A stretch of DNA of 64,000 nt from Chloroflexota bacterium. Lineage in GTDB: Bacteria > Chloroflexota > Anaerolineae > Anaerolineales > Villigracilaceae. This document shows, piece by piece, positions 9,629-27,669 of this stretch. The stretch is taken from positions 1-64,000 of the forward strand of contig JAKAKJ010000006.1 of the NCBI GenBank assembly GCA_021824575.1, in the 5' to 3' direction. The notes beneath the pieces are model-generated. The model did no database searches, was not told the DNA's origin, and saw only the letters and a list, made by a program, of their open reading frames with translations. Each line of letters opens with the position of its first letter. The stretch's first letter is position 1. The position numbers and the translations under genes were made by a program.

Positions 9629-11551
9629 CTAATGCAACGCGGGCATCGCCAAAGACGGCGCGCCAAAGATCCCGCTCAAGCCGCCAGTCACCTGATCGAA
9701 CGGATATGAAATATTTCGATACGCATCAAATGTCAGGCCCGAATATAAAGGGATGAACGGTAAATCCTGAACAAGCACGGATTGGATTTGAAAGACTTGC
9801 TGCCGCGCGGAATTCAAATCGCCGGTCGAATCCAACGCATCGCACGCGGACTGGAGGCGGCTCCCATTATAACCAAACGGATTCCCGTCCCCGAACCACT
9901 CACACAAATAGCCTGGATACTCGCTCACGTTCCATCCGAGCACAGCCATATCGAATTGATGGCTGCTGAAAACGGCATAGTTGATTTGATCCGACGGCAG
10001 CGACGCTGCCGTTAATGGAATCCCAAGCAGGCGCGCCTGTTGTTCAACGTAAGACGCGGCATTCACTTTCGTTTCATCAGCGGAAGAAACCATCAGATTC
10101 ACCGGGGAAAAACGCACCCCGTTTGGCAACGTCAATCCCTGGCCCGCCGCGTTGCCAGACGGTTCCTGCGTCCATGTGTAACCAGCAGATTTAAGCAGGC
10201 TCATCGCCTGAGTCAAACGAGAAGCCGCATCCATGCCTTTGCACGGAAGCGATGCGCTCGCGTCAGACCAGAATGTTTCACCGGGCGGGACAAATGAATC
10301 AAGCGGCGCGGCGGATGAATTCATCTGCCGGGCCAGTCCGTTCTCATCAATCATGCAGGTCAGCGCCTGACGCAAGGCTGAATCATTTAGTTCCTGATTC
10401 GATGAATTGAAGACCAAAAAACGCAAATCGCGATCCGGATTTTCCGCGATTTTTTGAACAGCAGGAATCTGATCCAGCCCCTGCGAGGAAACACCGCCGG
10501 GTTCAAGAATGGAGTCGACTTCGCCCCGTATCAATGCGGAGATGGCCGCGCTTTCATTTGGATAAAAGCTGTATGCCGCCTGTTCGAATGCCCGATATCC
10601 AAATGGGAATTCTATATTCGCAATATTTAAAACAGAATCTTTGTGCGATGGATCCACCTTCCATGCACCCAATAACGGCTCGTTGCCATCGCTCAACGCG
10701 TAGAGCGATTCTCGCGCGGCCTTCATGGCCATATCGTAACTGGATTGCGCTTTGGCAAGATCGCTGTTGGCTTGATTCAGATTATTCAACTGGCGGTTGA
10801 TGGTCAACTGCGCCTGCTGCATTTGATTCGGAGGAAAGGGAGTCGCAAGCATGGCATCGTATTGTTTTTGAAGATCGGAAGCACGCGCCTTCAACGTTTC
10901 GATTTGCGCGGCCGAATCATTTGGAGGCAGCAAAGCTGCAGGTGCGGCAATCTTTGATGACCAATATGCCTTTTGAACAATGGGACCTTGCAGCGCGCCA
11001 TATTGCCACACACCCACATTCGGCATTTTCTTGAAATAAAACTTAACTGTGCGCGCGTCCAGAGCTTCAGCGTGATCGAGGTAATCAGGATTGTAATAAT
11101 CGTGCCAGTCAAAACCAAGCTGGAAAGATAGAACAGTGTTTACCGTAAACGCAACATCATATGCGGTGAAAGGAGAACCATCCGTCCATTTCAAGTCAGC
11201 GCGAAGCGGAACGGTCGCCGTGTAAAAATTTCCCTCCTGCTGAACGGAGGATGGCATTCCGCTGGCGGCCATCGGCATAAATTGCTGTTCGGGAATCGAA
11301 AGCTGGTACAGGCGCGGCCAATAACCGGATCGAACCGCGTAGTTGTTGTACGAATATCCTTTTGAATCAAATAACGCCCAGACGTTGGCGTCGGTCAGGG
11401 AGCCAACCAGCGCAAAGCGAATTTCATGCGCGAGGGGAAGCGGAGTCGCTGTCGGTGTGGGAATGGCCGATGTAACGGCAGCCGTTTGAGGTCCGCATGA
11501 GACGAGCAAAACCAGCAGAAGAAATGCCGGTAATAGTCTGTAACGAATCAC
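9629..11551 (-). CDS. Family-5 ABC substrate-binding lipoprotein with helical insert
   Basis: 640 residues from a GTG start at 11551 that overlaps the TGA of the upstream gene by 4 bp. The signal peptide ends in a lipobox, LLVSC. The fold follows the peptide-binding family 5 order: LRADLKWTDGSPFTAYDVAF near residue 115, CMIDENGLARQM near 395, and a C-terminal lobe. Between about residues 210 and 290 is an unusual helical, coiled-coil-like stretch rich in Q, N, A and L (DLQKQYDAMLAT, NRQLNNLNQANSDLAKAQSS) not usual for the family. It is the last gene of the oligopeptide ABC operon, so it may offer a different ligand specificity to the same permease. Confidence 0.8.
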   Translation of the reverse strand: MIRYRLLPAFLLLVLLVSCGPQTAAVTSAIPTPTATPLPLAHEIRFALVGSLTDANVWALFDSKGYSYNNYAVRSGYWPRLYQLSIPEQQFMPMAASGMPSSVQQEGNFYTATVPLRADLKWTDGSPFTAYDVAFTVNTVLSFQLGFDWHDYYNPDYLDHAEALDARTVKFYFKKMPNVGVWQYGALQGPIVQKAYWSSKIAAPAALLPPNDSAAQIETLKARASDLQKQYDAMLATPFPPNQMQQAQLTINRQLNNLNQANSDLAKAQSSYDMAMKAARESLYALSDGNEPLLGAWKVDPSHKDSVLNIANIEFPFGYRAFEQAAYSFYPNESAAISALIRGEVDSILEPGGVSSQGLDQIPAVQKIAENPDRDLRFLVFNSSNQELNDSALRQALTCMIDENGLARQMNSSAAPLDSFVPPGETFWSDASASLPCKGMDAASRLTQAMSLLKSAGYTWTQEPSGNAAGQGLTLPNGVRFSPVNLMVSSADETKVNAASYVEQQARLLGIPLTAASLPSDQINYAVFSSHQFDMAVLGWNVSEYPGYLCEWFGDGNPFGYNGSRLQSACDALDSTGDLNSARQQVFQIQSVLVQDLPFIPLYSGLTFDAYRNISYPFDQVTGGLSGIFGAPSLAMPALH

Positions 11552-13500
11552 TGCTGGCAGCCCGATCCTTTGTCAAACGCTTCGATATTCCACATCGGGT
11601 TGGCGCTCGGATCGAGATCGAAGTGGCAAATGTCTGCGCGCGCCGCGGCGACTTTGATCCGGTAATAAAGCGGGATGGATGGAAGTGTTGAAGCAAAGAT
11701 GGCTTGCGCCTGATGGTACGCGTCGGTAAAACTTTGCTCGCCGGGCAATGCCAGCTGTGCGGCATGACAGGCCGCATCGAAATCCGGATTTTTGTATCCG
11801 CTCACGTTCGTGCCAACCCAATGATTGGCTTCATTCGGAATCTCAAGGCTGGTGAACCAATCGCAGGGCGGATTGATATTATCTGTTGACATCGCGTATT
11901 CGATCAAATCGAAGCGGCGGCCAAATAACAGGCCAAGCGGGCCGGGCGCGTAAAGATCGTTCTGGGAAAAATATTGAACGTTTACGCCGATGCCGCATTG
12001 CGACAGTGACTGCGAGAGAATATCCGCCACCTGACGGCGCTGCGCCGCGGGCGTGGAATAATAATTTAATTTGAGCGGTGTGCCGTCCTTGACATTTTTG
12101 ACTCCAGCCGCGACGCGCGGCGTGGCCGGATTGCCATCGAGGTCGCGCCAGCCAATCTGGGCGAGCAATTGCTCGCCCGCGGTCGGGTCGAATTTGTAAT
12201 CGGGAAGACCGGGTTCATAAACTGGATGACCGGCAGGCACGAACGAAGTCGGCACGCGGGTCTGCCCGAATAGAACCGTGTCCACAACTTTCTGCCGGTC
12301 GAGGCACAGAGCAATCGCCTGGCGCGTGCGCGGGTCGCCAAAAATATCCTGGCGTTCGGCGTTTGCAGAACTGTAACCGTTATCGAACGTGGCAGGCGTA
12401 ATGCCAAGCCCAAGCCATTCAATCGAATCGCTCGGCACGAAATACGCATGGATTTCTCCGCCCTGCTGCATTTGCTGGAGCAAAGCGACCTGCGTATCGA
12501 GGTGAATACTCGGATCGAGAATATCACACCGTCCCGCGGTCAATTCGCTGATGGCGGTATTTGGGTCGGTGATGAAACGAAAAACGACTTGATCGAATTT
12601 GGGATAACCTTCCGATGTGCGGAAGTAATACTGATTCTTTTCAAGCGTAATGTGATCGCCCTTGATCCATTCCTGGATCGCGTACGGTCCCCAACCGATT
12701 GGCGTGCGCGCGGCAATATCCATGTTTGGAAGATCTGCGGCTTTATATTGACCCCAAACATGTTTGGGAGCCGGGGCAAAAAAATTGGTCATGAAGGTTT
12801 GGTCGAGATAACCGGGAATGCCCCACCATTGTGTCACTGACGGACCAGCGGCTTCGTACGTTTGCGTGCGGTCAACCAGGAACTTCGAGCCGGGCGTGTT
12901 GTTATCTGCGGCAAGTTGATAGGCGTAAACCGAATCTTCCGATGTCAGCGGCGTGCCATCAGACCATGTGAGGTCGGAACGCATACGGAACGTCACAACC
13001 ATTTGATCCATCTGCAGCGGGCTGACGCCGTCATACGTAACCACGCAACCGTCACTGCGGCATCCCGATGGGCGGACGCGAACACCGGCGGCCAGCGAAG
13101 TCAAGTTGCCGTCCGCGTCCACGATCTTCGAACCAGCCGTGACACTAACCGGCGCGATCTGCGCGTCGCCGTTTTCGAGGCTGGGCATCTGCTGCAAGAT
13201 GACGGGTTGATAGGTGTAGCCGATTGTATCAAACGGCCCCTCATCAATGGCAGCCAGCACACTCAGCGCCGCGTCATTCGGACCCGAAAACGGGTACAAC
13301 GTATTTGGCTCTTCGCCCAGGCAGACGGTCAGCGTGCTTGGCGCGGATGGCGTCCCCGTTTCCGCGGGAGCCGAAGGCGAGGCAGTCGCCGATGTGGGCG
13401 TGGATGGCGCCGCAGCCAGAAACGGAATCGCACAGGCCGTTAATACAAAAAACAAAACCAAAAGCGCCAGTAGGTACTTTTTCTTCAAGAGAATGTCCAT
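11548..13500 (-). CDS. Family-5 ABC substrate-binding lipoprotein
   Basis: 650 residues with the N-terminal signal KKKYLLALLVLFFVLTAC (lipobox LTAC). The usual signature segments appear in normal order: CLGEEPNTLYPF, MRSDLTWSDGTPLTSEDSVYAY, GWGPYAIQEWIKGDHITLEKN, and AIALCLDRQKVVDTVLFG. Its likely ligand is a peptide or another oligomeric solute, delivered to the DppB/DppC permease. A strong ribosome site GGGGAGG precedes the ATG. A Ser/Thr/Pro/Ala-rich linker (residues about 30-55) tethers it to the lipid anchor. A hairpin separates it from dppC, so it may be partly uncoupled from the operon. Confidence 0.85.
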   Translation of the reverse strand: MDILLKKKYLLALLVLFFVLTACAIPFLAAAPSTPTSATASPSAPAETGTPSAPSTLTVCLGEEPNTLYPFSGPNDAALSVLAAIDEGPFDTIGYTYQPVILQQMPSLENGDAQIAPVSVTAGSKIVDADGNLTSLAAGVRVRPSGCRSDGCVVTYDGVSPLQMDQMVVTFRMRSDLTWSDGTPLTSEDSVYAYQLAADNNTPGSKFLVDRTQTYEAAGPSVTQWWGIPGYLDQTFMTNFFAPAPKHVWGQYKAADLPNMDIAARTPIGWGPYAIQEWIKGDHITLEKNQYYFRTSEGYPKFDQVVFRFITDPNTAISELTAGRCDILDPSIHLDTQVALLQQMQQGGEIHAYFVPSDSIEWLGLGITPATFDNGYSSANAERQDIFGDPRTRQAIALCLDRQKVVDTVLFGQTRVPTSFVPAGHPVYEPGLPDYKFDPTAGEQLLAQIGWRDLDGNPATPRVAAGVKNVKDGTPLKLNYYSTPAAQRRQVADILSQSLSQCGIGVNVQYFSQNDLYAPGPLGLLFGRRFDLIEYAMSTDNINPPCDWFTSLEIPNEANHWVGTNVSGYKNPDFDAACHAAQLALPGEQSFTDAYHQAQAIFASTLPSIPLYYRIKVAAARADICHFDLDPSANPMWNIEAFDKGSGCQQ

Positions 13501-13590
13501 GTTACCTCCCCTATATTTTATCTTTATTCTGAAGGATTACGGATACGGTCAAATGATAACGAAAAAAAGAATGGCCTGAAATTAAAGCCA

Positions 13591-13638
13591 TTCCCTCCTG
13601 GAAAAGATGCGTTGTTGGCAGCGCCTTCCGGGAGGGAA
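13591..13638 (-). terminator. Hairpin between dppC and the downstream binding-protein genes
   Basis: Arms TTCCCTCC(TGG) and (CCG)GGAGGGAA. A run of seven T on the minus strand follows some 20 nt later (13563-13569). It may attenuate or terminate transcription from dppC. Confidence 0.45.
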
Positions 13639-13669
13639 CAAAAAGGATTGACTCCAAAGAGATGAAGAG

Positions 13670-14713
13670 TTATGTCTTGCCGCGCATGCGTGGATCGAGC
13701 ACATCACGCAGGGCGTCGCCGACCAGGTTCCATCCCATCACAAACAGGGTCAGTGTCAGTCCCGGCCAGACGATAATGTACCAGTACATGTTCAAGCTGG
13801 TGATCCAGTTGCGGGCAAAACTGAGCACCTGTCCCCAATCGGCATAACCAACATTCACGCCGATGCCGAGGAATGAGAGCGCCGCAAAAGTAAGCACAAC
13901 GTCACCAATGCCCAGGGAAGCCAGGACCAGTGTCGGGAAGATGGCATTGGGAATAATATGGCGGAAGAGTATCTGGCTGTCCTTGACGCCAATCACTCGC
14001 GCCGCCATAATGAAGTCACGTTCCTTGACAGAAAGAATATCGCTGCGAATGACGCGGGCATAACCCATCCAGCCAAACGTGATCAAGGCAATGATGGATG
14101 GTATCAGGCTCCTTCCAATCTTCGGCGTAAGCACAGCCGCCAGGATGAGGGCTGCCAAAATGAAGGGCAGGGTCAGGAAGACGTCCACAACACGCATGAT
14201 GATGTTATCCACCGCGCCGCCGTAATAGGCTGAGACCGAGCCAACAATAATGCCAATCAGGAAAGTGGCAATCACCACGATGAATCCGGTGCGGAAAGCT
14301 GTCCGCGTGCCCCAGACGATCCCATAAAAGACATCATACTGGCCCTGCGATGTACCGAGGATATGCACCCAGTGATCGGTTTTCATAATGGGCTTCCACC
14401 AGAAAGGCAGAGGCGGAGCATTGCGCGTCCAATCTGACATCATGGGCCGGGGTTCCGATGTAAACCCATCGCGCGGGATTTTGTAAGGGTCATCAGGTGT
14501 CAAAGGGGGCGCAATCAAAGGCGCAGCCAACGCGATGAAGATGAACAATGCAATCAAAATGAAACCCAGAATGGACGCGGGCGTCTTCAACAGGCCCCTA
14601 AGGATACGGTAATTTTCCGGGCCCAAAAAGCGTTCCAACCCGCTAATATCACGCAAGGGAGTGGTTTCGCGCAGAAGAGTATTGTCGCCGGTAGGAAGTG
14701 CAGAATCAGCCAT
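13670..14713 (-). CDS. dppC: Oligopeptide ABC transporter permease, DppC/OppC type
   Basis: 347 residues. The N-terminal cytoplasmic stretch and first helix (ILGFILIALFIFIALAAPLIAPP) are followed by a periplasmic loop and five more helices. The EAA loop that contacts the ATPases is seen around GVKDSQILFRHIIPNAIFP. GWMGYARVIRSDILSVKERDFI is typical of DppC. The C-terminus ends in D-P-R-M-R-G. GAGGAG lies upstream of the ATG. It is separated from dppB by 11 bp and forms the membrane channel with it. Confidence 0.92.
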   Translation of the reverse strand: MADSALPTGDNTLLRETTPLRDISGLERFLGPENYRILRGLLKTPASILGFILIALFIFIALAAPLIAPPLTPDDPYKIPRDGFTSEPRPMMSDWTRNAPPLPFWWKPIMKTDHWVHILGTSQGQYDVFYGIVWGTRTAFRTGFIVVIATFLIGIIVGSVSAYYGGAVDNIIMRVVDVFLTLPFILAALILAAVLTPKIGRSLIPSIIALITFGWMGYARVIRSDILSVKERDFIMAARVIGVKDSQILFRHIIPNAIFPTLVLASLGIGDVVLTFAALSFLGIGVNVGYADWGQVLSFARNWITSLNMYWYIIVWPGLTLTLFVMGWNLVGDALRDVLDPRMRGKT

Positions 14714-14724
14714 AAGAAATCTCC

Positions 14725-15789
14725 TCAGGACAAGCGTACGCGCGGATCAATGAACGCATACATGACGTCGACCACCAGGTTCGCCAGAATCAAGATCAAT
14801 CCATTGAAAATGGCAAAGCCCAGCACAGTTATCACATCCAACTGAGCAGCAGCGTTAGCCGCGGCCTGGCCAATGCCCGGGTAGTTGAAGACCGTCTCGG
14901 TGATCACCACGCCGCCCAGCAGGGTGATAACCTGGAACCCCGCCAGCGTTACAACAGGCAGCATGGCATTCGGGCGCGCATGTTTGTTGATGACAACATT
15001 CTCGGGCAGGCCCTTGGCGCGGGCTGTCGTAACGTACTCCATGCGCAGGGTTTCGAGCATCGAAGAACGAGTCACGCGTACGAAGGTCGCCCAACTGATA
15101 TAAGAAAGGGTCAGGATCGGCATGAGCATGTGGCGCATGGCATCCCAGAAAATATCGAGTCGCCCATTGAGCAGTGAGTCTATGGTCAACAAAGAAGTAT
15201 AGTGATGAAAACTACTCGAGTAAACGATCTGACTGGCCCAGTCAGAAAGCCTGCCCGGCGGGAACCATTGCAGGTTGGCATAAAAGATCAACAACATCAA
15301 TAAACCGAACACAAAGGTAGGGAAGGATGTGCCAATAATGCTGAAGATTCTTGCGGCCTGATCAATAAAGCCATTCTGGTGAACAGCGGCCTGAACTCCC
15401 AGCCAGATGCCAACCGAGATCACCGGTACAACCGCCCACAGGGTAAGGTCCAGTGTGTTCGGAAAACGAGTGAGAATGAGATTGTTTACGGTCGTGGATG
15501 CGGTACGCGAGTAACCGAAATCCCCGAAGAGGATCCCACCGGTCCGCTTCCCGGTGACTGTATCAGTGCGCCCAACCATCCAACGCCAATACTGGACGTA
15601 GAGGGGCTGATCCAGCCCATAAGTCTTGATAATGCCGTTGATCGCATTGTCATTTTTCGGTATATCCCTGACGTATAAAGCCGACCGCTCCACTGGGGAA
15701 AGGAACTGCAACATGCCGAAGATTAGCACTGTCACCCCGAAAAGCAACACCGGCACCAGCAGCAAACGGCGGATAATATATGTGCCCAT
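14725..15789 (-). CDS. dppB: Oligopeptide ABC transporter permease, DppB/OppB type
   Basis: 354 residues from ATG 15789 (GAGG 6 nt upstream); a GTG two codons earlier is possible. Start YIIRRLLLVPVLLFGVTVLIF and end DVMYAFIDPRVRLS are standard for DppB. The EAA loop is seen at ARAKGLPENVVINKHARPNAM. Six helices are predicted by eye. It follows the permuted binding-protein gene, from which a strong hairpin at 15875-15900 separates it, and pairs with dppC. Confidence 0.92.
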   Translation of the reverse strand: MGTYIIRRLLLVPVLLFGVTVLIFGMLQFLSPVERSALYVRDIPKNDNAINGIIKTYGLDQPLYVQYWRWMVGRTDTVTGKRTGGILFGDFGYSRTASTTVNNLILTRFPNTLDLTLWAVVPVISVGIWLGVQAAVHQNGFIDQAARIFSIIGTSFPTFVFGLLMLLIFYANLQWFPPGRLSDWASQIVYSSSFHHYTSLLTIDSLLNGRLDIFWDAMRHMLMPILTLSYISWATFVRVTRSSMLETLRMEYVTTARAKGLPENVVINKHARPNAMLPVVTLAGFQVITLLGGVVITETVFNYPGIGQAAANAAAQLDVITVLGFAIFNGLILILANLVVDVMYAFIDPRVRLS

Positions 15790-15874
15790 GAACACCTCAC
15801 GATTTTGTCATTCAGATTGAACTGAATCCGGTCAAAGATCCATTCCAATCGGCAGGACAAAACCTAAAATGATG

Positions 15875-15900
15875 GTATGGGGGCCCGCAGGCCCCCATAC
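15875..15900 (-). terminator. Strong intra-operon hairpin after the binding-protein gene
   Basis: A perfect 11-bp stem GTATGGGGGCC / GGCCCCCATAC around CGCA, 21 bp past the stop codon. No T-run follows. It probably stabilises the binding-protein mRNA end or partly terminates, giving more binding protein than permease. Confidence 0.6.
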
Positions 15901-15921
15901 AGAATACACATCGAACGTGAC

Positions 15922-17955
15922 TTACTTGATATTGAAGTTGTAGATGATCACGTCCTGGGAAAGGACCGGCAGGCCCATATACACACGCAAGGGCTTTTCC
16001 GTCGCGGAAGGTGCAGTTTGGCCCGCTGCGCAGACCACGAACTTGGCAACTCCCAGCTTGGTTGAGTCATAGCCGCAAACGGGCTGAGGTGCGTCATAGG
16101 ATCCGGTGGTTGTATTATACACAGCCAACTCACCGACTAGCGCATCAGCCTGCGAGCGGTTCTCGACCGGCACGTCTACAAGATCAGCATCACCAGCCTG
16201 TAATTCGCTGAAGCGGGTGCCCCACTCGGGGACGATCTGGATTACTGCGCGATCCAGTTTGGGCGCATTCGCGGTATCCCAATAAGTGGGATTCTTGGTC
16301 ATAACGATTTCCTGACCAGCGGTCCAGTGGTCCAGCATGAAGGGACCGGTGCCCATGGCAACCTTGGACAGCGGATCATCGGCAGAGGTGATTCCATAGA
16401 ATTTCTGCCAGGTGTCGCAGGAACCATCCCAACCGCCCTGCGCGGCAACCCACTTGGCATCCATGACAGAACCCCAAGTCTGGGCAATGGTGGCCAGGAA
16501 CGGGCCCCACGGCTGAGCCAGGGTCATGGTAACGGTATTGGCCGTGTCGTCAGGGACAATCTGCTTATTGAGGTTATCGCAAACAGCCTTGAGCTTGGCA
16601 GGATCAACCTTTTGAAGGCTGGCGGCATCATCCACGAGAGCGCCGGTGGAATCCAGCATATAAGCCACATCCTGATTGCCTACACCGAAGAATGGCTCAG
16701 AAAGCAGCCACTGCGGAGAAGCGCCGCCGCCCTGCAACAGGCCGCGTACAAATGAATAGGCAACATCGGAAGCGGTCAACGGATCACCGTTCGAGAACGT
16801 GACGCCGGAGTGAAGCTTGAAGGTATAGGTCTTTCCATCCGCAGAGACTGTTGGCATCTCAGAAGCCAGCATGGGGACGAAGGAACCAGGCTTGTCGCCA
16901 TCATAGAAGACCAGAGTATTGTAAATATTCTGGATGACTTCGCCGCTGGCGGTATCATAGGCTAGGGCCGGATCAAGCGTATCTGCGTCACCGATCGTTG
17001 CATACGTGAAGGTGGTCGGGTTCTTGGCGCCTGCAGCCTTGGAAATGGGCTGGAAGTAGATACCAGGATAGATCGGGTTGCGGACGAGTCCCTGCACCCA
17101 GCGCTGTTCGAAGCCATGGCTGGTGGCAAGTACAAGCGGAATACCAGGAACCTGATCGTAGTACAACTGATTGATCTGCTGGTAGAAAGGAGCGCGCGCT
17201 TCGGGAGTGGTTGCGCCTACGCCTTGATCCAACAGGGGTTTGAATTGAGCTTGCAGATCAGCCGGCATGTTCTGGCGGCCGCCGTAAGCGCCAACGGTAT
17301 AAGGCTGGTACCAGTTGGCCGGGTCATGAATATCTTCGAGCCAACCAGCAGTCATGATCGGGATCTGACTGGCGCGTTGAGCAGCCAAATAAGCCGGCCA
17401 CGGCAGACCTAGAACTTCGACCTGGAACTTGTCGTTGACCTGAGACAAGTTGGAAGCCAAAATTTCAGCCACGGTCTGGCGGGTGGTGTTACCCTGGTTG
17501 TACAGCATCTGAATGCGGAAGCCAACATCCCACAGGGATTTGCCATCCGGCGACTTCAAGGCCGAAGCCTTGAACGCGTCAGCGGACTTGGCGAGGTCCA
17601 TGGTGTAGTGCGGGGCATTCGGATCATAACCGGGCATCCCAGGGAGTGAAAGTTCCAACGATTGAACCGCTTCCCCCTTGTAAACATCATTAATGTAGGT
17701 ATCCCAGTCAAAGGCATAGCTGAAGCCTTTGCGGACATTCACATCAGCGAAGAAATCCGGGGGAACACCCTTACCATCCAACTGGCCGGAGCCAATATAC
17801 GGATTGGAAACCGGGGCTTCGGTGGGTGCCGCTGTTGGAGCTTCGGTCGCTCCTGCCGGAGCTTGGGTGGGGGCTGGGGTCGGCGTACCGCCGCAGGCGG
17901 ACAACACAACACTCAGCGCGATCAACAAACTCAGTAAAACAAAGGTTTTACGCAT
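15922..17955 (-). CDS. Circularly permuted family-5 peptide-binding lipoprotein
   Basis: 677 residues from ATG 17955 (GAGGAGA upstream; the ATG five codons earlier is less well placed). The signal peptide has lipobox LSAC (C21), then a Pro/Ala/Thr linker. Compared with the paralogue at 23556-25571 the order of segments is swapped. Residues about 51-306 (from YIGSGQLDGKGVPPDFFAD to VRNPIYPGIYFQPIS) match the paralogue's C-terminal residues 413-671. Residues about 311-677 (from KNPTTFTYATIGDADTLDPA to RVYMGLPVLSQDV) match the paralogue's N-terminal part, residues 62 to about 412. All conserved segments are present once, so this is a circular permutation with the secretion signal kept in front. 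The frame is open throughout, and the gene sits in the normal binding-protein position of its operon. Peptide binding is inferred from the family. Confidence 0.88.
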   Translation of the reverse strand: MRKTFVLLSLLIALSVVLSACGGTPTPAPTQAPAGATEAPTAAPTEAPVSNPYIGSGQLDGKGVPPDFFADVNVRKGFSYAFDWDTYINDVYKGEAVQSLELSLPGMPGYDPNAPHYTMDLAKSADAFKASALKSPDGKSLWDVGFRIQMLYNQGNTTRQTVAEILASNLSQVNDKFQVEVLGLPWPAYLAAQRASQIPIMTAGWLEDIHDPANWYQPYTVGAYGGRQNMPADLQAQFKPLLDQGVGATTPEARAPFYQQINQLYYDQVPGIPLVLATSHGFEQRWVQGLVRNPIYPGIYFQPISKAAGAKNPTTFTYATIGDADTLDPALAYDTASGEVIQNIYNTLVFYDGDKPGSFVPMLASEMPTVSADGKTYTFKLHSGVTFSNGDPLTASDVAYSFVRGLLQGGGASPQWLLSEPFFGVGNQDVAYMLDSTGALVDDAASLQKVDPAKLKAVCDNLNKQIVPDDTANTVTMTLAQPWGPFLATIAQTWGSVMDAKWVAAQGGWDGSCDTWQKFYGITSADDPLSKVAMGTGPFMLDHWTAGQEIVMTKNPTYWDTANAPKLDRAVIQIVPEWGTRFSELQAGDADLVDVPVENRSQADALVGELAVYNTTTGSYDAPQPVCGYDSTKLGVAKFVVCAAGQTAPSATEKPLRVYMGLPVLSQDVIIYNFNIK

Positions 17956-18051
17956 CTTGCTTCTCCTCACAATTGAAAAGTGAATTTTTGGGCACGACGA
18001 ACTAAGGACAGTTAAACTCTTTTACCGAGCAACCACCTCCTTTCCAATTCC

Positions 18052-19047
18052 TTATTGCACGAACCTCTCCGCGAAATGACAGGCCACAAAATGACCTGAT
18101 TTCAACTCACGGAACTCAGGCCGTTCCTGAGCGCAAATCGCCTCAGCAATTGGACAGCGCGTGCGAAAACGGCAACCCGAAGGCGGATTCACGGGAGAGG
18201 GGACATCCCCTTCCAATATAACACGTTTGCGCTGTGTTTCAATAACGGGATCAGGGACTGGAACCGCTGAAAGCAGGGCCTGGCTGTATGGATGCAACGG
18301 ATTCGAGTACAAATCCTTGCGTTCAGCCAATTCAACGATTACACCCAAATACATAACAGCCACGCGCTTGCTGATATGGCGCACCACAGAAAGATCATGG
18401 GCGATGAACAAATAAGTGAGGTTGAATTGCTGCTGCAATTCCTGGAGCAGGTTAATGACCTGCGCCTGAATGGAAACATCCAGTGCGGAAATAGGCTCAT
18501 CACAAACGATGAAAGAAGGCTGCAATGCCAAAGCGCGGGCGATGCCAATGCGCTGACGCTGACCGCCGGAAAATTCATGAGGATAGCGGGATGCAAAAGA
18601 TGGATTCAGTTTGACCAGTTCCAGCAGATGCTCGACACGTTCCCGAATCTCATTGCGTGTCCCCACATTGTGAACCATCAACGGTTCTCCGATGATTTGC
18701 TCCACGGTCATGCGCGGATTCAGGCTGGCGTACGGGTCCTGAAAGATCATCTGCATCTCGCGGCGCATCCAGCGCATTTCCTCCCGTTTCAACGCGATCA
18801 AATCGGAACCGTCGAAGTAGACATGCCCGGCGGTGGGCTTGTAAAGCTGCAAAATGGTACGGCCCGTCGTGGATTTCCCGCAGCCAGATTCACCTACGAG
18901 GCCAAGCGTCTCGCCGCGTCTGACATCAAAGGAAATCCCATCCACAGCATGAACGGCTCCAACCTGGCGTTGGATAACGCCGCGGTAAATCGGAAAGTGC
19001 ATGACCAGGTCTTCGACCCGCAACAGGATATCATTGTCGGCGCTCAT
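18052..19047 (-). CDS. dppF: Oligopeptide ABC transporter ATPase, DppF/OppF type
   Basis: 331 residues from ATG 19047, which overlaps the dppD stop by 4 bp (ATGA). An in-frame start 35 codons upstream lies inside dppD and is rejected. Walker A is GESGCGKST, the signature [15 protein letters not shown], Walker [13 protein letters not shown]. The C-terminal dipeptide-transporter extension has the Cys cluster [15 protein letters not shown]. It starts with [18 protein letters not shown], diagnostic of DppF. It forms the ATPase heterodimer with DppD. Confidence 0.94.
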
Positions 19048-20036
19048 GAGCGATATCTCCCGGTTTTGGTATCCACAAAGCAGGCCGCCTTGTGCTCTGG
19101 TCCAACATTCATCAATACAGGATTCTCTTTCCAGCATTTCTCCGCGGCCCACTTACAGCGCGGCGCGAAAGGACAGGCAGCCGGCTTCTCATAAAGCACT
19201 GGCGGCGCGCCTTCGATTGAAAAAAGCCTGGCACCTTCATCCTCGTCAACGCGCGGCAGGCTGCCCAACAAGCCAAGTGTATAAGGATGCTGCGGGTTGG
19301 CGTATAACTCCTTTACCGGGGCCTCCTCGATAATATAGCCGCCATACATCACAATGACACGCTCCGCCAAGCCTGCCACCACACCCAGATCATGGGTGAT
19401 CCAGATCACCGCCATGCCAAGCTCATCGCGCAAACGCTTGACGAGTTCGATGATCTGAGCCTGGATGGTTACATCCAGAGCGGTGGTTGGTTCATCGGCG
19501 ATCAATATTTGCGGATTGCAGGAAAGCGCCATCGCGATCATTACGCGCTGGCGCATGCCCCCAGAATATTGGTGAGGATAATCCTTCAAACGTTCTTTGG
19601 AATTGGGAATGCCAACCATGGATAACAGCTCCGCAGCGCGTGCATCTGCCTGCTTCTGGTTCATGCCCACATGCAGCATAAGCGGTTCTGTCAACTGGCG
19701 GCCGATGGTCAATACCGGATTGAGGGAGGTCATCGGATCTTGAAAGACCATGCTGATCTGTGCGCCGCGCACATGGCGAATATCCTCACTCGACATTTTC
19801 AGCAAATCCTTGCCGAGGAATGAAGCTTCGCCCGCGACGATTTTTCCAGGCGGCGATGGAATCAAACGTAACACCGACAACATGGTTACACTCTTACCAC
19901 AACCGCTCTCTCCGACCACCCCCAATGTTTCTCCCTCTTTTAGATCAAACGAAACTCCATTCACCGCGTGAACAACTCCCTCAGGGGTTTTGAAAGTCGT
20001 TTCGAGTTTTTGTACATCGAGCAATAGACCGGGCAT
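19044..20036 (-). CDS. dppD: Oligopeptide ABC transporter ATPase, DppD/OppD type
   Basis: 330 residues. Walker [11 protein letters not shown], signature [15 protein letters not shown], Walker [13 protein letters not shown], switch His in WITHDLG. The C-terminal cysteines [14 protein letters not shown] belong to the extension found in dipeptide/oligopeptide ATPases. It is the first gene of the downstream peptide operon. A good promoter lies about 70-95 bp upstream. Its paralogue at 26677-27669 is closely similar over the whole length. Confidence 0.94.
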
Positions 20037-20470: not shown

Positions 20471-21193
20471 TCATGCCTTTGTTTTTTTTCGGATGAAAAG
20501 GATTGCAGATAATACAATGATAATCAATGCAAGGCCCACCAGGATGATCCAAAGCACGCCATTGTTCGATTCCCGAACTGGGGATTGAGGAACACTGGGG
20601 GCCGTTGCATTTTCTTTCATGGAGACAGGAATCTGCGCGGCATTGGACGCGTTGATCTCGACGGAGCTACTCCAAAGTCCGTTTTGACGAAGAAGAAAGG
20701 CAACGAGCTGATAATACTGTGTACTGTCAAGCGAAGCCGGAGCTTGAAAAGGCATGGCACTGCTGATGAAATCATATAATGCCGCTGCAGTAGAAAAATT
20801 ATCCAAAACATTGCTGCCGATCAATGGCGGTACGACCGTTGGAAGAACAAAGCCATTTGTATATGGCCGGTGACCATGACAACCTGATTTCCAGCAATCT
20901 TGATGATCTTGCGGGTAGAGTTGGCGGAATTCAGCAGTAAGCCCCTGCCCTTTGTTTCCATGGCATGCCATGCAATGTAACCAGTACACCTGCGCGCCAT
21001 AATCTGCCTGAGATGGTACCGCTGGTAAAGTCGGCTCTGCCAACGGATCTGGAGTGGGTGCAGACAGAGTATTCGCAGACGGAGAAATGGATAAGGCCGT
21101 ACTTCCGGGGAGCCAGAGCGCTGTCACGAACAATGCGCCAAGCGCAATGCACCACAGCACAAAAAGAAATTTGGCAACATCCAGATGCTTCAT
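20471..21193 (-). CDS. Membrane-anchored c-type cytochrome
   Basis: 240 residues. An N-terminal hydrophobic segment (FLFVLWCIALGALFVTALWL) acts as signal or anchor, and a C-terminal helix (ILVGLALIIIVLSAILFI) is followed by a basic end. A haem c site is seen as CMACHG (about residue 73). A second cysteine pair, CWKSGCHG (C-x4-C-H, about residue 103), lies 25 residues on and could be an atypical haem site. The likely axial Met is in SAMPFQAP. The domain faces outside and probably carries electrons. It is placed directly after the upstream peptide operon with a 71-bp gap. No oxidase or reductase is nearby, so its partner is unknown. Confidence 0.82.
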   Translation of the reverse strand: MKHLDVAKFLFVLWCIALGALFVTALWLPGSTALSISPSANTLSAPTPDPLAEPTLPAVPSQADYGAQVYWLHCMACHGNKGQGLTAEFRQLYPQDHQDCWKSGCHGHRPYTNGFVLPTVVPPLIGSNVLDNFSTAAALYDFISSAMPFQAPASLDSTQYYQLVAFLLRQNGLWSSSVEINASNAAQIPVSMKENATAPSVPQSPVRESNNGVLWIILVGLALIIIVLSAILFIRKKTKA

Positions 21194-21264
21194 GCAAAAT
21201 GGAATCGAGGGCCCCTCTCAACGCGAGAGAGGTCCCGCCTTTTGAAAGAGTTCCCCGATGTTCC

Positions 21265-22239
21265 TCATGGACGCAGGCCGCGCAACTTGGGATCAAGCGC
21301 ATCACGAAAGGCATCGCCTACGAGATTCCATGCAAGCACATAGAGCAGGAGCGCAATGCCCGGATAAACGATGATATACCAATACGTTGCCAGGCTGGGA
21401 ATCCAGTTGCGGGCAAAGCTAAGCAGCTGTCCCCAGTCCGCATATCCGACTTCAGTTCCAACGCCCAGAAAACTCAAAGCGGCGAATGAAAGCACATAAG
21501 TCCCGATATCGAGCGAGGCGACCACAAGCAGGGAATAAACAGAGTTTGGCAAAATGTGGCGCATCACCATCCGGAAATCGCGCACGCCGATGGCACGCGC
21601 AGCCAAAACAAAATCGCGTTCCTTGATCGCCAGCACGTCGCCGCGGATGATGCGCGCATAACCCGGCCAGCCAAATAACGTCAGCGCAATGATGCCGGTC
21701 AGGATGCCGCTATGCACTACCGGTCCAAAAACGGATGCGGCAGTGATTGCTGCAAGAAGGAAAGGGAAAGCAAGGAAAATCTCCACAACACGCTGCAGTG
21801 TCTCATCAATAATGCCGCCATAGTATGCTGAAACCAGGCCGACAATCATGCCAATGATCAGCGTAAGTCCCGTGATAATGATGCCAACTTCAAATGCAGT
21901 GCGCGTACCCCACACGACACCATAGAAAAGATCAAATTGCCCTTCTGTGGTGCCAAAGACATGCCTCGCACTAGGCGGTTGCGGTTCGGAGCTAAAACCA
22001 TCGCGCGGAATCATGTAAGGATTTCCAACATTTTGTTCAGCTTCCTGCTGTGCGATGGCAGGCTCAACAATATTAACGATTTGCTGGGCAAAGATGGCAA
22101 CCAGGGCAAATGCGACAATGAGCACTACACCGGTGATGGACGCCGGATTTTTTAACAAAGCGCGAAGCCAGGCCGGGGTGCGGCTTTGCGGAGGCAGGGC
22201 CCACTCATTCGCTTTGATATCGGGTGAAATCGTTGCCAT
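21265..22239 (-). CDS. dppC: Oligopeptide ABC transporter permease, DppC/OppC type (upstream operon)
   Basis: 324 residues from ATG 22239 with AGGAG 6-10 nt upstream; 50 upstream in-frame codons overlap dppB and are rejected. GFSSEPQPPSARHVFGTTEGQ, the EAA-type loop GVRDFRMVMRHILPNSVY and the C-terminal LDPKLRGLRP identify DppC. It is paralogous to 13670-14713. The stop of dppB lies 8 bp before its start. A cytochrome c gene follows it. Confidence 0.92.
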   Translation of the reverse strand: MATISPDIKANEWALPPQSRTPAWLRALLKNPASITGVVLIVAFALVAIFAQQIVNIVEPAIAQQEAEQNVGNPYMIPRDGFSSEPQPPSARHVFGTTEGQFDLFYGVVWGTRTAFEVGIIITGLTLIIGMIVGLVSAYYGGIIDETLQRVVEIFLAFPFLLAAITAASVFGPVVHSGILTGIIALTLFGWPGYARIIRGDVLAIKERDFVLAARAIGVRDFRMVMRHILPNSVYSLLVVASLDIGTYVLSFAALSFLGVGTEVGYADWGQLLSFARNWIPSLATYWYIIVYPGIALLLYVLAWNLVGDAFRDALDPKLRGLRP

Positions 22240-22247
22240 TTTTACTC

Positions 22248-23276
22248 CTATGAGAGACGAATCCGCGGATCGAGGAAGGCATACAAAACATCCACGGCCA
22301 GATTGGCAAGCACCAATAGAGTCGCCTCGAACATCACCACGCCAAGCACCGAGACCACATCTAACTGCAAAGCGGACTGGGCGATCCAAAACCCAATTCC
22401 GCGATAATTGAAGATGGTCTCTGTAATAACAACGCCATTCATCAAACCAACGAGCAGCAATCCGCCAACAGTCGCCACGGGGATCATCGCATTGGGGCGG
22501 GCATGCCTATTCATTACAGCCTGCTCTTTTAATCCTTTGGCGCGGGCAACGGTCACATAATCCTGTCGAACTACGTCAAGCATCGAGGAGCGCGTGACGC
22601 GGAGAATCAACGCCCAGGAAATATAAGAGAGAGTCAACGCCGGCAGCACCAAATGGCGCAGGGCATCCAGAAAGATATCAAACCGCCCATTCAACAACGC
22701 ATCGAATGTGTTCATGTGGGTATATTGATGAAAACTGGAAGAGCCTACAACCAGGTTGGCCCAATCGGACAGGCGTCCCGGAGGGAACCATTGCAATTTG
22801 GCGTAAAAAAGCATTAGAACCAACAGGCCGAAGACAAAACTGGGAAATGAATATCCAATGATGCTGAAGACGCGGGCGGCCTGGTCAATGAATTTATCCT
22901 GATGGATTGCGGCCTGGATTCCCATCCACACTCCAATCACGATGATTGGGATGAAGCTCCATATCGCGAGTTCAAGGGTGGCGGGAAAATAAGCAAGGAT
23001 GGCTTGAACGACCGGCCGCTGAGCAGTCTTCGAATACCCCAGATCGCCGTGCAAAACCTGGGAAAGCCAATTCCAGTACTGAACCGGAATAGGCTGATCA
23101 AGTCCGTATTTTAGAATAAGTTGGTTGAGGGCGTTTGCGGTTTTTGGGGGTGAGGACACATATAAGGCTGCGCGCGTAGCCGGGTCAAGGAACGAGATCA
23201 TTGCAAAAATTAAAATGCTCAACCCGATCAAAACAATGGGCAGGATCAATAATCGGCGAATGATGTATGAAATCAT
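22248..23276 (-). CDS. dppB: Oligopeptide ABC transporter permease, DppB/OppB type (upstream operon)
   Basis: 342 residues starting YIIRRLLILPIVLIGLSILIF and ending DVLYAFLDPRIRLS, closely paralogous to 14725-15789. The loop ARAKGLKEQAVMNRHARPNAM is the ATPase-contact region. Six membrane helices are expected. It follows the binding-protein gene after a 279-bp gap containing a repeat and a hairpin. Confidence 0.92.
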   Translation of the reverse strand: MISYIIRRLLILPIVLIGLSILIFAMISFLDPATRAALYVSSPPKTANALNQLILKYGLDQPIPVQYWNWLSQVLHGDLGYSKTAQRPVVQAILAYFPATLELAIWSFIPIIVIGVWMGIQAAIHQDKFIDQAARVFSIIGYSFPSFVFGLLVLMLFYAKLQWFPPGRLSDWANLVVGSSSFHQYTHMNTFDALLNGRFDIFLDALRHLVLPALTLSYISWALILRVTRSSMLDVVRQDYVTVARAKGLKEQAVMNRHARPNAMIPVATVGGLLLVGLMNGVVITETIFNYRGIGFWIAQSALQLDVVSVLGVVMFEATLLVLANLAVDVLYAFLDPRIRLS

Positions 23277-23363
23277 TGGTGACTCCTTGAATATTTAAAA
23301 CACGTTAACCAATGAGCAGACCAACTTTATGCTACTCTGCCTTATAGGTGTTTTGAAGTTCGC

Positions 23364-23458
23364 TTAACCACAGATGAAGCATGGGGTAAAAAAAGCGCCA
23401 GTCGGCTAAACAGGATTTTTATCGAACTCGGCGTTTATCCCTGTTTATCTACGGTAAA
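23364..23458. repeat. Inverted intergenic repeat (ACCACAGATGAA ... TTTATCTACGGT)
   Basis: Imperfect outer arms TTAACCACAGATGAA and TTTATCTACGGTAAA enclose AACAGGATTTTTATC and TTTATCCCTGTTTATC. It lies between a binding-protein gene and dppB. Confidence 0.55.
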
Positions 23459-23486
23459 TTCTTGACATGAAACACGCTATTGGTTT

Positions 23487-23520
23487 GGACAGAGGCCGGG
23501 AAAACTCCCGACCCCTGTCC
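23487..23520 (-). terminator. Hairpin after the upstream binding-protein gene
   Basis: GGACAGAGGCCGGGA / TCCCGACCCCTGTCC around AAAAC, 36 bp past the stop codon. It occupies the same place as the hairpin at 15875-15900 in the paralogous operon, with unrelated sequence. Confidence 0.6.
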
Positions 23521-23555
23521 CTAAACTACACTTATACAGTTACGTTACTGCCTGA

Positions 23556-25571
23556 CTACTGCCCTTTGCTCAAAGCGTAATAATAGAACGATGAGTAGAT
23601 CGGGTTGTAGTAATAACCGTGTACCCATTCCTGCTCGTAATGCCGAGCGGTGGGTGCGACAGCAAAGATGTCCAGCGCATTGTCCACAGCGATCTTGTTC
23701 AGCTGCGCGTAAAGCGACGCGCGCTGGGTTTGATCTGACGAGGACACAGCCTGATTGATCAGCGCGTCCATTTGCTTTTGCAGCGTAGGATCAAAGCTCT
23801 GCGTACCGGAATAAGCGCCGCCGCTGCCGAGGTATGGGGCAACCCAGTCATTCGGGTCATGATAATCCTCGAGCCAGCCAAGCCAGAAAGCAGATAATCG
23901 GCTGCCTTCATAATCCTTCAAGAATACAGGCCACGGTTCGTCGTTCACAGCGAGATGGAACTTGGGGTTAACCTTGGCGAGGTCTTGAGCAAGAATCTGA
24001 CCAGCGATCTGGCGCGTTGTGTTACCGGTGTTGTACATGTAGGCGAGGTAGAAGCCTTTCGTGTTCAGATCGGCCAAGCCGGGATCCTGCGCCGCAGCTG
24101 CGAATTCAGATTTGCACGTATCCAGGCTGAATTGCTGAGGCTGAGCGCTTGAGTCATAACCCAGCTCGCCCGGAGGAATCGGCCCGTTCGGCTGAACGGC
24201 CTCGCCGTTGTAGACCTGCTTGATGAAAGTGTTGAAGTCGAAGCAGGCGACGAAGGCCTTGCGAACATGGATGTCAGCGAAGAAGTTCGGAGGAACGCCA
24301 TTGCCATCCAGTTTGCCGGAGCCGAGGAAGGAATTGCCGCCGACCACGTTCACATTCTGGTTGAAGAACAAGTCATCCTCTTCCAGACCTGGCATGCCCT
24401 TATACAAGCGCAGGAAGCCATTGGCATTGGCAGGCTGGCATTGACCATTGCCTGATCCATCGCATGTTTCCTTCACCAGCGGATCCACCTGGGCAATATA
24501 GTTGCGGTCAACATCAGCGAAGTCAGCATCACCGGTTTCCAGCATGGCGAGACGCGTGCCGAATTCGTTGACGATCTTGATGGCGATGTGAGCGATCTTG
24601 GCAGTGCCGGAAGGACCGCCGGTCCATAACGGCTGCGTCGCCCAGTAATTCGGATTCGCGTCGAGATCAATCTCGTTGCCCTTGTCCCATTTCGCGAGCG
24701 AATAAGGACCCGTGCCGTTCATCTTATCGAAGAGCGGATCAGTTTGGGCATCAGGATTGTTGAACTTTTGGGCGTCGGCGCAGTTGCCGTCCCAATCACC
24801 CTGCTGCACAGCCCAGCTCTGGTCCAGGACACTGCCCCAGGAGTTTGCAATCGAGGCAAGGAATGGACCCCACGGCTGCTTCAAGGTCATTGTCACGGTA
24901 TTGGCATTGTTGTCAGCCACGATCATCTTTTGCGCAGCCTGACATGCGGCAACAAAGTCGCCGTTATACATCGTGTTCACGACATCGTCGCCAGTCTTGT
25001 CACCGGGCTTGACTGTCGCGTCCAGGAACGTGCCGGTCACAGAAGGACCAAAGAACGGCTGCAACATGATCCATTGCGGACCGCTGTCACGGCTTTGGAT
25101 AAAGCCGCGCACGAAGGAATACGCAACATCGCTGGCCTTCAGCGTATCACCGTTCTGGAATTTGACGCCTTGGCGAATGTTGAACGTCCAGGTCAGGCCG
25201 TCAGCAGATGTTGTCCATGAAGTGGCCAGCATGGGAACATACTGATCCACTTTATCGCGGTTATAGAAGACAAGCCCTTCGTAGACATTCTGGATGATCC
25301 CGCCGCTGGCCGTGTCATACGCCCACGCTGGATCCAACGATTGCGGATCACAACCCTCGCACGCATAAACGAGCGTATCGGGGTTCTTGATGGCTGGGGC
25401 CGCAACTGCAGTCGGTTGGGCTGTGCCCGCAGGCGCAGGGCTCGCAGTCGCGGGTGCGGAAGTTGCGGGTGCCGACGTCGCAGGTGCTGCAGTTGTCGCC
25501 GCAGGTCCGCAGGCGGTAAGCACTAAACCAGCAACCATCACAAAGCTTACTATTACTAAAAGCTTACGCAT
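23556..25571 (-). CDS. Family-5 peptide-binding lipoprotein (normal domain order)
   Basis: 671 residues. Signal peptide LLVIVSFVMVAGLVLTAC with lipobox LTAC (C21), then a long Ala/Thr/Pro linker. The mature part begins KNPDTLVYACEGCDPQSLDPAWAYDTASGG and proceeds in the family order through IRQGVKFQNGDTLKASDVAYSF, GTGPYSLAKWDKG and GSGKLDGNGVPPNFFADIHV to GYYYNPIYSSF. Additional cysteines (CEGC, CDGSGNGQC) may form disulfides. It is the reference against which the permuted protein at 15922-17955 is recognised. It sits between dppF and dppB in the upstream operon and probably binds peptides. Confidence 0.9.
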   Translation of the reverse strand: MRKLLVIVSFVMVAGLVLTACGPAATTAAPATSAPATSAPATASPAPAGTAQPTAVAAPAIKNPDTLVYACEGCDPQSLDPAWAYDTASGGIIQNVYEGLVFYNRDKVDQYVPMLATSWTTSADGLTWTFNIRQGVKFQNGDTLKASDVAYSFVRGFIQSRDSGPQWIMLQPFFGPSVTGTFLDATVKPGDKTGDDVVNTMYNGDFVAACQAAQKMIVADNNANTVTMTLKQPWGPFLASIANSWGSVLDQSWAVQQGDWDGNCADAQKFNNPDAQTDPLFDKMNGTGPYSLAKWDKGNEIDLDANPNYWATQPLWTGGPSGTAKIAHIAIKIVNEFGTRLAMLETGDADFADVDRNYIAQVDPLVKETCDGSGNGQCQPANANGFLRLYKGMPGLEEDDLFFNQNVNVVGGNSFLGSGKLDGNGVPPNFFADIHVRKAFVACFDFNTFIKQVYNGEAVQPNGPIPPGELGYDSSAQPQQFSLDTCKSEFAAAAQDPGLADLNTKGFYLAYMYNTGNTTRQIAGQILAQDLAKVNPKFHLAVNDEPWPVFLKDYEGSRLSAFWLGWLEDYHDPNDWVAPYLGSGGAYSGTQSFDPTLQKQMDALINQAVSSSDQTQRASLYAQLNKIAVDNALDIFAVAPTARHYEQEWVHGYYYNPIYSSFYYYALSKGQ

Positions 25572-25675
25572 GGTTCTCTTCTCCTGCTATTCTCCTCACG
25601 TTCTAAAATCAAATCTGTCGGATACATCTAAGGCTCAGACTCCGTTCTCACATTGTGGGCTTCGACCACCTCCTT

Positions 25676-26680
25676 TCAACCTGCAAATTGATCGGCGAAA
25701 TGGCACGCCGCAAAGTGACCTGGTTTCACCTCGCGAAACTCAGGCACTTGCTCAGCGCAAATGGGCTTTGCAATCGGACAGCGCGTGCGGAAGCGGCAGC
25801 CTGAGGGTGGATTTACCGGAGAGGGCACATCGCCTTCCAATATGATCCGCCGCCGCTTGGCCTCCACCATCGGGTCCGGAACAGGAACCGCAGATAGCAG
25901 CGCTTGCGTATAAGGGTGGAGCGGCATGTTGTACAACTCAATCCGATCCGCGATCTCAACAATGATGCCAAGATACATCACCGCCACGCGGTCACTGATA
26001 TGGTGCACCATTGAAAGATCGTGAGCAATGAATAAATACGTCAGGCCAAACTGCTTTTGCAAATCTTCCAGCAGATTGACAACCTGCGCCTGAATCGAAA
26101 CGTCGAGGGATGAGATCGGTTCGTCGCATACGATCAGGGAAGGCTGCAGTGCCAAAGCGCGCGCGATGCCGATGCGCTGGCGCTGGCCTCCGGAAAATTC
26201 ATGAGGGTAACGCGTGGCATATGCAGGATTCAATTTGACGACATCGAGCAGATAACCAACCCGTTCGCGCACCTCTCTGGTATTGGCCGCGTTATGGACG
26301 ATCAACGGCTCACCGATAATCTCGCCCACGGTCATGCGCGGATTGAGGCTGGCGTATGGGTCCTGAAAGATGATCTGCAATTTGCGGCGCATCTTTCGCA
26401 TCTCTTCCTTCTTGAGCTTTACCAAATTAACATCTTCAAAGAAGACATCGCCCGATGTGGGTTTATAAAGCTGCAGAACTGTCCGGCCGGTGGTGGTCTT
26501 GCCGCAGCCAGACTCACCCACGAGGCCCAATGTTTCGCCGCGATTGACCGAAAAACTGACGCCATCCACCGCATGTATGGCGCCTACTTGACGGCGTATC
26601 ACGCCGCGATAAATTGGGAAATGCATCTTGAGATTTTCAACCCGCAAGATGACTTCCTGGTTATTGCTATTGTCGCTCAT
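25676..26680 (-). CDS. dppF: Oligopeptide ABC transporter ATPase, DppF/OppF type (upstream operon)
   Basis: 334 residues from ATG 26680, overlapping the dppD stop by 4 bp. [18 protein letters not shown] at the start, Walker [10 protein letters not shown], signature [15 protein letters not shown], Walker [13 protein letters not shown], and the C-terminal [15 protein letters not shown] cluster. It is paralogous to 18052-19047 and was probably produced by the same operon duplication. Confidence 0.94.
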
Positions 26681-27669
26681 GAGCGACTTCTCCCAGTTTG
26701 AGTATTGACCCAGCAGGCCACGCGGTGTTCGGGAGCCACCGGTTCGAGCATGGGATTTTCCTGCCAACAGCGTTCAACAACCCACTTGCAGCGCGGCGCA
26801 AATGGACATGAGGCTGGCCTCTCGTATAAAACCGGCGGTTGCCCCTCGATGGAAAACAGGCGCTTTCTTTCTTTTTCATCGACGCGCGGAAGGCTGCCAA
26901 GCAAGCCGATCGTGTAAGGATGCCGGGGATTGGCATAAAGCTCGCTAACCGGAGACTCCTCAATAATAAAACCGCCATACATGACGAGGACGCGCTGGGC
27001 CAGTCCGGCGACAATCCCCAGATCGTGCGTGATCCAGATAATCGCCATGCCCAATTCATCGCGCAGCCGTTTGACAAGATCCGTGATTTGCGCCTGGATG
27101 GTTACATCCAGAGCCGTGGTGGGTTCGTCTGCAATCAAAATCTGTGGCGAACATGCCAGCGCCATGGCGATCATCACACGCTGGCGCATACCGCCGGAAA
27201 ACTGATGGGGAAAATCGTTCAAGCGATCCTGTGCCTGGGGGATGCCCACCATCGAAAGCAATTCCGCTGCGCGCGCCCGCGCCTGACTCCGGCTCATGCC
27301 AACATGCAGCATGAGCGGTTCTTCCACCTGACGTCCAATGGTCAATACTGGATTAAGTGAAGTCATTGGATCTTGAAAGACCATGCTGATTTGCGCCCCA
27401 CGCACATGCCTGATCTCTTCATTTGACATCTGGAGCAAATCTTGTCCAAAGAACAGCACTTTCCCCGCTGCTATCTTGCCGGGTGGCACTGGGATCAGGC
27501 GCAAAATTGATAACATGGTTGCGCTCTTGCCACAGCCGCTCTCCCCAACCATCCCCAGTGTCTCTCCTTCTTTCAGATCGAACGATACTCCATTGACTGC
27601 GTGAACTACTCCTTCGGGCGTCTTGAAGATTGTTTCAAGCTCTTGCACATCAAGTAGAGATTCAGACAT
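26677..27669 (-). CDS. dppD: Oligopeptide ABC transporter ATPase, DppD/OppD type (upstream operon)
   Basis: 330 residues, same length as its paralogue at 19044-20036. Walker [11 protein letters not shown], signature [15 protein letters not shown], Walker [14 protein letters not shown]-terminal [14 protein letters not shown]. It is the first gene of the upstream peptide operon, with a TATAAT box about 60 bp before its start. The operon order is D-F-binding protein-B-C-cytochrome. Confidence 0.94.

Follow-up and report, generated by a model that had tools for sequence, protein, structure and literature searches.

A naturally circularly permuted family-5 substrate-binding protein encoded in a Dpp-type transporter operon of Anaerolineae

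In the genome of a Chloroflexota bacterium, one gene encodes a family-5 substrate-binding protein (SBP) whose two halves appear to have changed places. Is this a natural circular permutation in a working transporter receptor, or does it reflect a misassembled or decaying gene? The gene lies in a stretch of 64,000 nucleotides (contig JAKAKJ010000006.1), hereafter the window, which also encodes a paralogue in the normal order (23556..25571). Both genes, and the parts and operon partners described below, are on the minus strand, a point missing from the coordinates given by the sequence-only reading that preceded this analysis. The permuted gene (17955..15922) runs from an ATG at 17955 to a TAA stop at 15924-15922 and encodes 677 aa: a signal peptide and a linker come first, followed by the old C-terminal half (residues 51-306), a connector of ~4 residues and the old N-terminal half (residues 311-677).

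The signal peptide (residues 1-21, 17893..17955) ends in the lipobox LSA-C, with Cys21 as the first mature residue. It shares 45% identity over 22 residues with the signal peptide of the paralogue (BLASTP, 1-22 to 1-22), and Cys21 is invariant among 26 permuted homologues. From motif and alignment only, as no signal-peptide predictor was used, we infer that the protein has what is expected of a lipoprotein: a signal peptide, a lipobox and a +1 Cys. A low-complexity Pro/Thr/Ala linker follows (residues 22-50, 17806..17892), which resembles in length that of normal-order homologues and falls where the predicted structure has a pLDDT <50 (residues 19-48). The old C-terminal half, now N-terminal (17038..17805), covers the greater part of lobe 2 (domain III) and then leads the chain back to domain I. 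The connector AAGA (residues 307-310, 17026..17037), which is missing in normal-order homologues, joins the old C-terminus ..PISK to the old N-terminus KNPTTFTY... The old N-terminal half, now C-terminal (15925..17025), corresponds to domains I and II and stops at the I-to-III hinge. The new chain is closed by a predicted hinge strand (residues 656-672, 15940..15990), where the break was aligned to normal-order homologues. In the normal-order chain, domain III follows this strand directly; the permuted chain ends there with ..IIYNFNIK, while normal-order homologues go on via a loop into ..NPYIGSG.

When compared with the paralogue by BLASTP, the permuted protein gave two non-collinear blocks in addition to the signal-peptide match: residues 302-677 matched paralogue residues 52-408 (43% identity, 4e-87), and residues 51-306 matched paralogue residues 413-669 (42%, 1e-60). 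PF00496 (SBP_bac_5) is likewise found in the permuted protein as two out-of-order stretches (1.7e-62, 212 bits, gathering cutoff 32.4), and in the paralogue as a single stretch. Two full-length repeats can be rejected because each segment is present only once. These results establish a natural circular permutation: two segments are swapped, each occurs once, and normal-order homologues exist. As the canonical N-to-C domain order is not met, we file the protein as a permuted family-5 variant rather than an ordinary member. The sequence-only reading had claimed swapped halves in a single open frame, each segment occurring once, a retained lipobox signal and a breakpoint at about residue 412/413 of the normal order. 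The first claim is confirmed by BLASTP and Pfam, the second and third (LSA-C21) held, and the breakpoint is right (paralogue 412/413).

AlphaFold2 (AF2) modelled the window protein with a pLDDT of 87.1 and a pTM of 0.82. The old C-terminal half has a pLDDT of ~60-98 and the blocks spanning the connector (residues 301-320) 94-96, so that the old termini are predicted to be joined by a short, feasible connector. The AF2 input was small, with 26 sequences (the window protein and 25 permuted relatives) in one run and 30 in the other, and the models are predictions only. With VIA-align, model residues 314-667 superposed on residues 1-264 of DppA (1dpe; Z 22.1, rmsd 2.1 A, 242 aligned), and the superpositions on OppA, AppA and GbpA were similar; across DppA and OppA, the matched region is the N-terminal 264-270 residues, onto which model residues 306-668 fit with Z 22-23. 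Because of the match of residues 314-667, we equate the C-terminal part of the permuted protein with the N-terminal part of DppA, and the new C-terminus falls at ~DppA 266. The OppA/DppA chain crosses between the lobes twice, and the first of these crossings, out of lobe 1 and into lobe 2, lies at about this residue. Foldseek and VIA both align sequentially and matched only one part of the permuted chain, and the TM-scores of the model (~0.3-0.4) therefore understate the similarity. Residues 51-300 were not separately superposed, and their assignment is supported by the 42% identity to the paralogue and by model confidence. With this part assigned by sequence, the protein is predicted to adopt the three-domain, two-lobed fold.

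The permuted protein is encoded together with a full set of transporter components. Directly upstream is a DppF/OppF-type ATPase (18052..19152; NCBIfam OppF, E 7e-132), and a DppD/OppD-type ATPase of the same operon lies in a conserved position (19044..20036; NCBIfam OppD, E 5e-117). A DppB-type permease is directly downstream (14725..15795; NCBIfam Opp2B, E 2.9e-68), along with a DppC-type permease (13670..14713; NCBIfam Opp4C, E 1.9e-65). The normal-order paralogue sits in a second complete D-F-SBP-B-C operon.

The same order was found in dozens of other Anaerolineae genomes, a recurrence that places it far beyond chance. A further species of the same genus encodes the protein in this order in one frame, with 68% identity over its full length. 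Searches at the family, order, class and phylum levels, together with the family of genome G399, yielded 45 frames of this order, which we denote type A. Some of these frames are truncated at contig ends; they come from ~43 genomes and at least seven Anaerolineae families (f1, f5, f13, f14, f29, f31 and f46), and an eighth, f9, has a type A fragment at a contig end. One type A gene (G400) lies on a contig of 4,145,241 bp in a near-finished genome of two contigs. Pairwise dN/dS, calculated with our own Nei-Gojobori script, was 0.06-0.17 in permuted pairs and 0.06-0.09 in two normal pairs, and many positions in both halves are invariant among 26 permuted proteins. Orthologues, purifying selection, operon context and a confident predicted fold thus support the proposal that a family-5 SBP has undergone circular permutation in nature. 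Some genomes encode two type A paralogues (L164 and L184 in G1160; L194 and L195 in G1166).

The sequence-only reading also understated the case: the permutation is retained in different families, it arose or was altered repeatedly, and at least two further breakpoints exist. We mapped every homologue to an order-corrected coordinate, in which the old N-terminal half spans 1-371 and the old C-terminal half 372-627, and defined further types by the order of their matches. Type B breaks at 208/209, directly after GGWDGTC, and was found in three genomes (G609, G666 and G630, the last split over two contigs). Type C breaks at ~455-460, inside domain III, and was found in two genomes (G399 and G325), whose proteins share 49% identity. 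The receptor slot of related Anaerolineae thus holds four orders: normal, type A (that of the window gene), type B and type C. All three permuted types keep the signal peptide, the lipobox, a linker of 26-64 residues and the join of the same old termini. The connector has a near-constant length in all three, staying within 1 residue in nearly all type A and type C proteins. An AF2 model of a type C protein (pLDDT 86.0, pTM 0.84) places residues 222-677 on DppA 1-346. In the type C model of L150 (G399), the terminal strands (residues 44-48 and 674-678) each carry a cysteine (44 and 678); these might pair in a disulfide that staples the ends, and the G325 protein is without them. Two apparent variants were set aside: the protein of G706 looks permuted from its match range, yet has the normal order, and what look like remnants of the old N-terminal half opening some type A proteins (alignments that begin at dep 289-341) are low-complexity linker extensions rather than duplicated remnants. 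A normal-order SBP, L125 (G023), contains an insert of ~76 residues with a short repeated alignment on either side (dep 134-149) and adjoins a second normal SBP copy on the same contig.

Where enough flanking sequence was available, normal and type A loci read DppD-DppF-SBP-DppB-DppC, and a cytochrome-c-like gene and a second SBP often come after DppC. Type C loci have all of D, F, B and C, with D and F divergently oriented in G325. In type B loci, DppB and DppC are downstream of the SBP, and neither D nor F turned up in the flank examined. Within a single orthologous slot, then, the permuted form takes the place of the normal one.

Do the type A genes descend from a single permuted ancestor? 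In a tree of 56 order-corrected sequences, type A appears in four places: a main clade (f1, f13 and f14; support 95/95); L142 and L145 (f46 and f29; 100/100), beside the normal-order L106; L136 (f5), within normal-order sequences of f64; and L135 (f5), alone. The placements of L135 and L136 rest on one assembly each. Type B forms one clade, and type C forms one clade in the tree of the C-terminal half and is unresolved in the others. Separate trees of each half scatter type A in both. In AU tests, a single type A clade was rejected (p 5e-34, at a cost of 326 log units), as were groupings of the main clade with only L142/L145 (p 1e-6) or only L136 (p 1e-8). The groups tested were set by gene order, and the sub-group tests were picked after the tree was known. 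The normal order is suggested to be ancestral because it is universal in the solved family-5 proteins found; if so, the tree implies about six order changes, although the number of independent fusions is unproven. In normal homologues, the chain ends in, or close to, SK, and the fold begins with [K/A/P]DPTT. We read the near-constant connector as the shortest join that the fold allows, which does not exclude a single ancestral fusion.

Altogether, we consider it very likely (probability of roughly 0.85) that the permuted protein is a working transporter receptor in which recurrent permutation has relocated the tether site. The data show the chain order and its conservation, the operon slot, the predicted fold and several tree placements. 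Function, altered hinge mechanics and the duplication route are inferred, as there are no binding, transport or expression data, and any advantage of the permutation is unproven. On this reading, the protein would be secreted and then lipidated at Cys21, which would anchor it to the membrane. Lobe 2 (domain III) would be made first, and the chain would return to domain I, where the ~4-residue connector would stand in for the old termini; domains I and II would be built next, with the chain ending at the I-to-III hinge. The two-lobed fold would be unchanged, but the anchor would enter beside the hinge, where lobe 2 begins, rather than at the beginning of domain I. Given where the chain is broken, we infer a single lobe crossing instead of two. 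Its partners are encoded by the same genes in unchanged order, and the receptor may therefore be expected to bind a peptide-like or related substrate in the same cleft and to dock to the same DppBC/DppDF pump, although no binding data exist. Selection would keep the signal peptide and the near-zero-length join of the old termini. A bolder reading, which we would neither press nor dismiss, is that there were at least six separate order changes at three breakpoints, each keeping the signal peptide and the minimal join, that the tether site is evolvable, and that type A loosens the hinge by dropping one of the two lobe crossings.

Several alternatives to this receptor reading or to parts of it can be raised. 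The first is that types A, B and C all derive, through re-permutation, from one ancestral permuted or fused-tandem gene, in which case the intervening normal-order genes would be reversions, or recombination between copies would have misled the tree. In its favour, the connector is near-constant in length and similar in make-up (SK-xxxA-K[N/D]PTT) across the three types. Against it, monophyly of type A is rejected, both half trees scatter type A, and a single gain would by our reading of the tree need about seven or more reversions to the normal order, versus four gains. The constant length can also be explained by a minimal join at the same geometry, because the normal ends already carry SK and [K/A/P]DPTT. 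We consider a single fusion unlikely.

The route by which the receptor was permuted is also open to more than one account. Tandem duplication followed by trimming is a published model of permutation (PMC3320104) and is the route that we infer to be most in line with the data; it had been proposed by the sequence-only reading and remains plausible, though the homologues examined included neither a fused dimer nor an intermediate with a partial duplication. The recognised alternative (PMC3320104) is fission and then re-fusion in the other order, which would be helped by the fact that lobe 2 is a compact unit. Split SBP genes were not seen in the loci examined, however, the signal peptide and linker stayed at the front, three breakpoints would require three different splits, and head-to-tail duplicates do occur in the same slot (G701). 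Fission and re-fusion therefore seem improbable. In the G701 locus (L149, G701:C43, 3011-7405), the interval from DppF to DppB holds two normal-order SBP genes in head-to-tail arrangement, parted by a single in-frame TAG whose loss would fuse them into one frame. We rejected its 1465-aa frame as a fused protein, as it consists of two normal SBP genes around the in-frame TAG. The operon of G498 also contains two SBP genes.

A third possibility is that the permuted gene is decaying or silent, its function having been taken over by the paralogue (23556-25571), as the presence of two complete operons side by side in the window might suggest. Full-length dN/dS of ~0.1 and the many invariant positions in both halves of 26 permuted proteins speak against this, as do the lipobox, intact in all complete permuted frames, and the operons, intact wherever the flank sufficed; we regard decay as very unlikely. 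Finally, an assembly artefact, in which halves of one normal gene or of two genes were wrongly joined, is all but excluded, for although the source assembly has 98 contigs and no reads were inspected, dozens of other assemblies (one near-finished) share the order in single frames, the source genome has no normal-order copy of the gene, the stop codon and operon neighbours match exactly, and purifying selection extends over the full length. Of the two outcomes that would have refuted the sequence-only reading, full-length repeats and misassembly, neither survives, the latter on the evidence of orthologues.

How does the protein compare with known systems? With E. coli DppA (1dpe/1dpp; 8z1y complex), OppA, NikA, GbpA and AppA it has in common PF00496, a predicted two-lobed fold and the operon partners. 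DppA has the normal order, whereas the permuted protein is broken at ~DppA residue 266, is a lipoprotein tethered by a long linker, and shares only ~25-28% identity. The window paralogue and other normal-order Anaerolineae homologues (for example, L144 of G051 and L058 of G031) are much closer (42-60% identity, same slot, same linker type) and differ by their normal order. One lipidated binding protein of an ABC importer, Treponema pallidum Tp0684/TpMglB-2, is already known to be circularly permuted in nature, and its binding and closing were shown experimentally (PMC4990184). TpMglB-2 has a cluster B sugar-binding fold, it is broken within the N lobe, which gives it a fourth hinge crossing, and its permuted part matches poorly in sequence; the present SBPs, in contrast, belong to cluster C, match clearly in both halves, have several breakpoints and, in type A, are inferred to remove a crossing. 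Its authors proposed membrane tethering as the driver of permutation (PMC4990184), and our all-lipoprotein, long-linker set is consistent with this idea, but tethering alone is insufficient because normal-order relatives are tethered too. The type I to type II domain dislocation of periplasmic binding proteins (cited in PMC9815098) is likewise a change of chain order, but it is ancient and fold-level, with strands exchanged between lobes, rather than a permutation within orthologues. OpuAC/ProX offer a further lead, which was not confirmed in the open-licence literature searched.

Circular permutation of a binding protein is thus known; what appears new, in the literature searched, is that it occurs in family 5, that it is conserved and that it recurs with three breakpoints. 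The sequence-only reading knew of no described permutation in this family, and we too found no report of a permuted family-5 SBP or of such recurrence in the open-licence literature searched, which leaves most subscription journals outside its scope. The finding extends permuted binding proteins from cluster B to cluster C, with a chain that has been cut and re-joined more than once without visibly breaking its predicted fold. Natural circular permutation is usually inferred from distant homologues; here, normal and permuted proteins share 55-62% identity in one slot. With both orders and three breakpoints in that slot, direct tests become possible of how the permutation arose, how far the fold tolerates it and what part membrane tethering plays. 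Natural permutation sites are also of use in biosensor design. More cases may hide in other phyla, because annotation pipelines label such proteins plain SBP_bac_5.

The window itself contains tandem paralogous D-F-SBP-B-C operons, both complete (11548-20036 and 20471-27669), one with a permuted and the other with a normal-order receptor, and a third SBP (11548-13500) comes after the genes of the first. It also encodes a small membrane-anchored cytochrome-c-like protein with a CMACH motif (20471-21193, minus strand). Such a protein recurs inside or at the end of these peptide-transporter operons, being found also at L141, L144, L146, L135 and L138.
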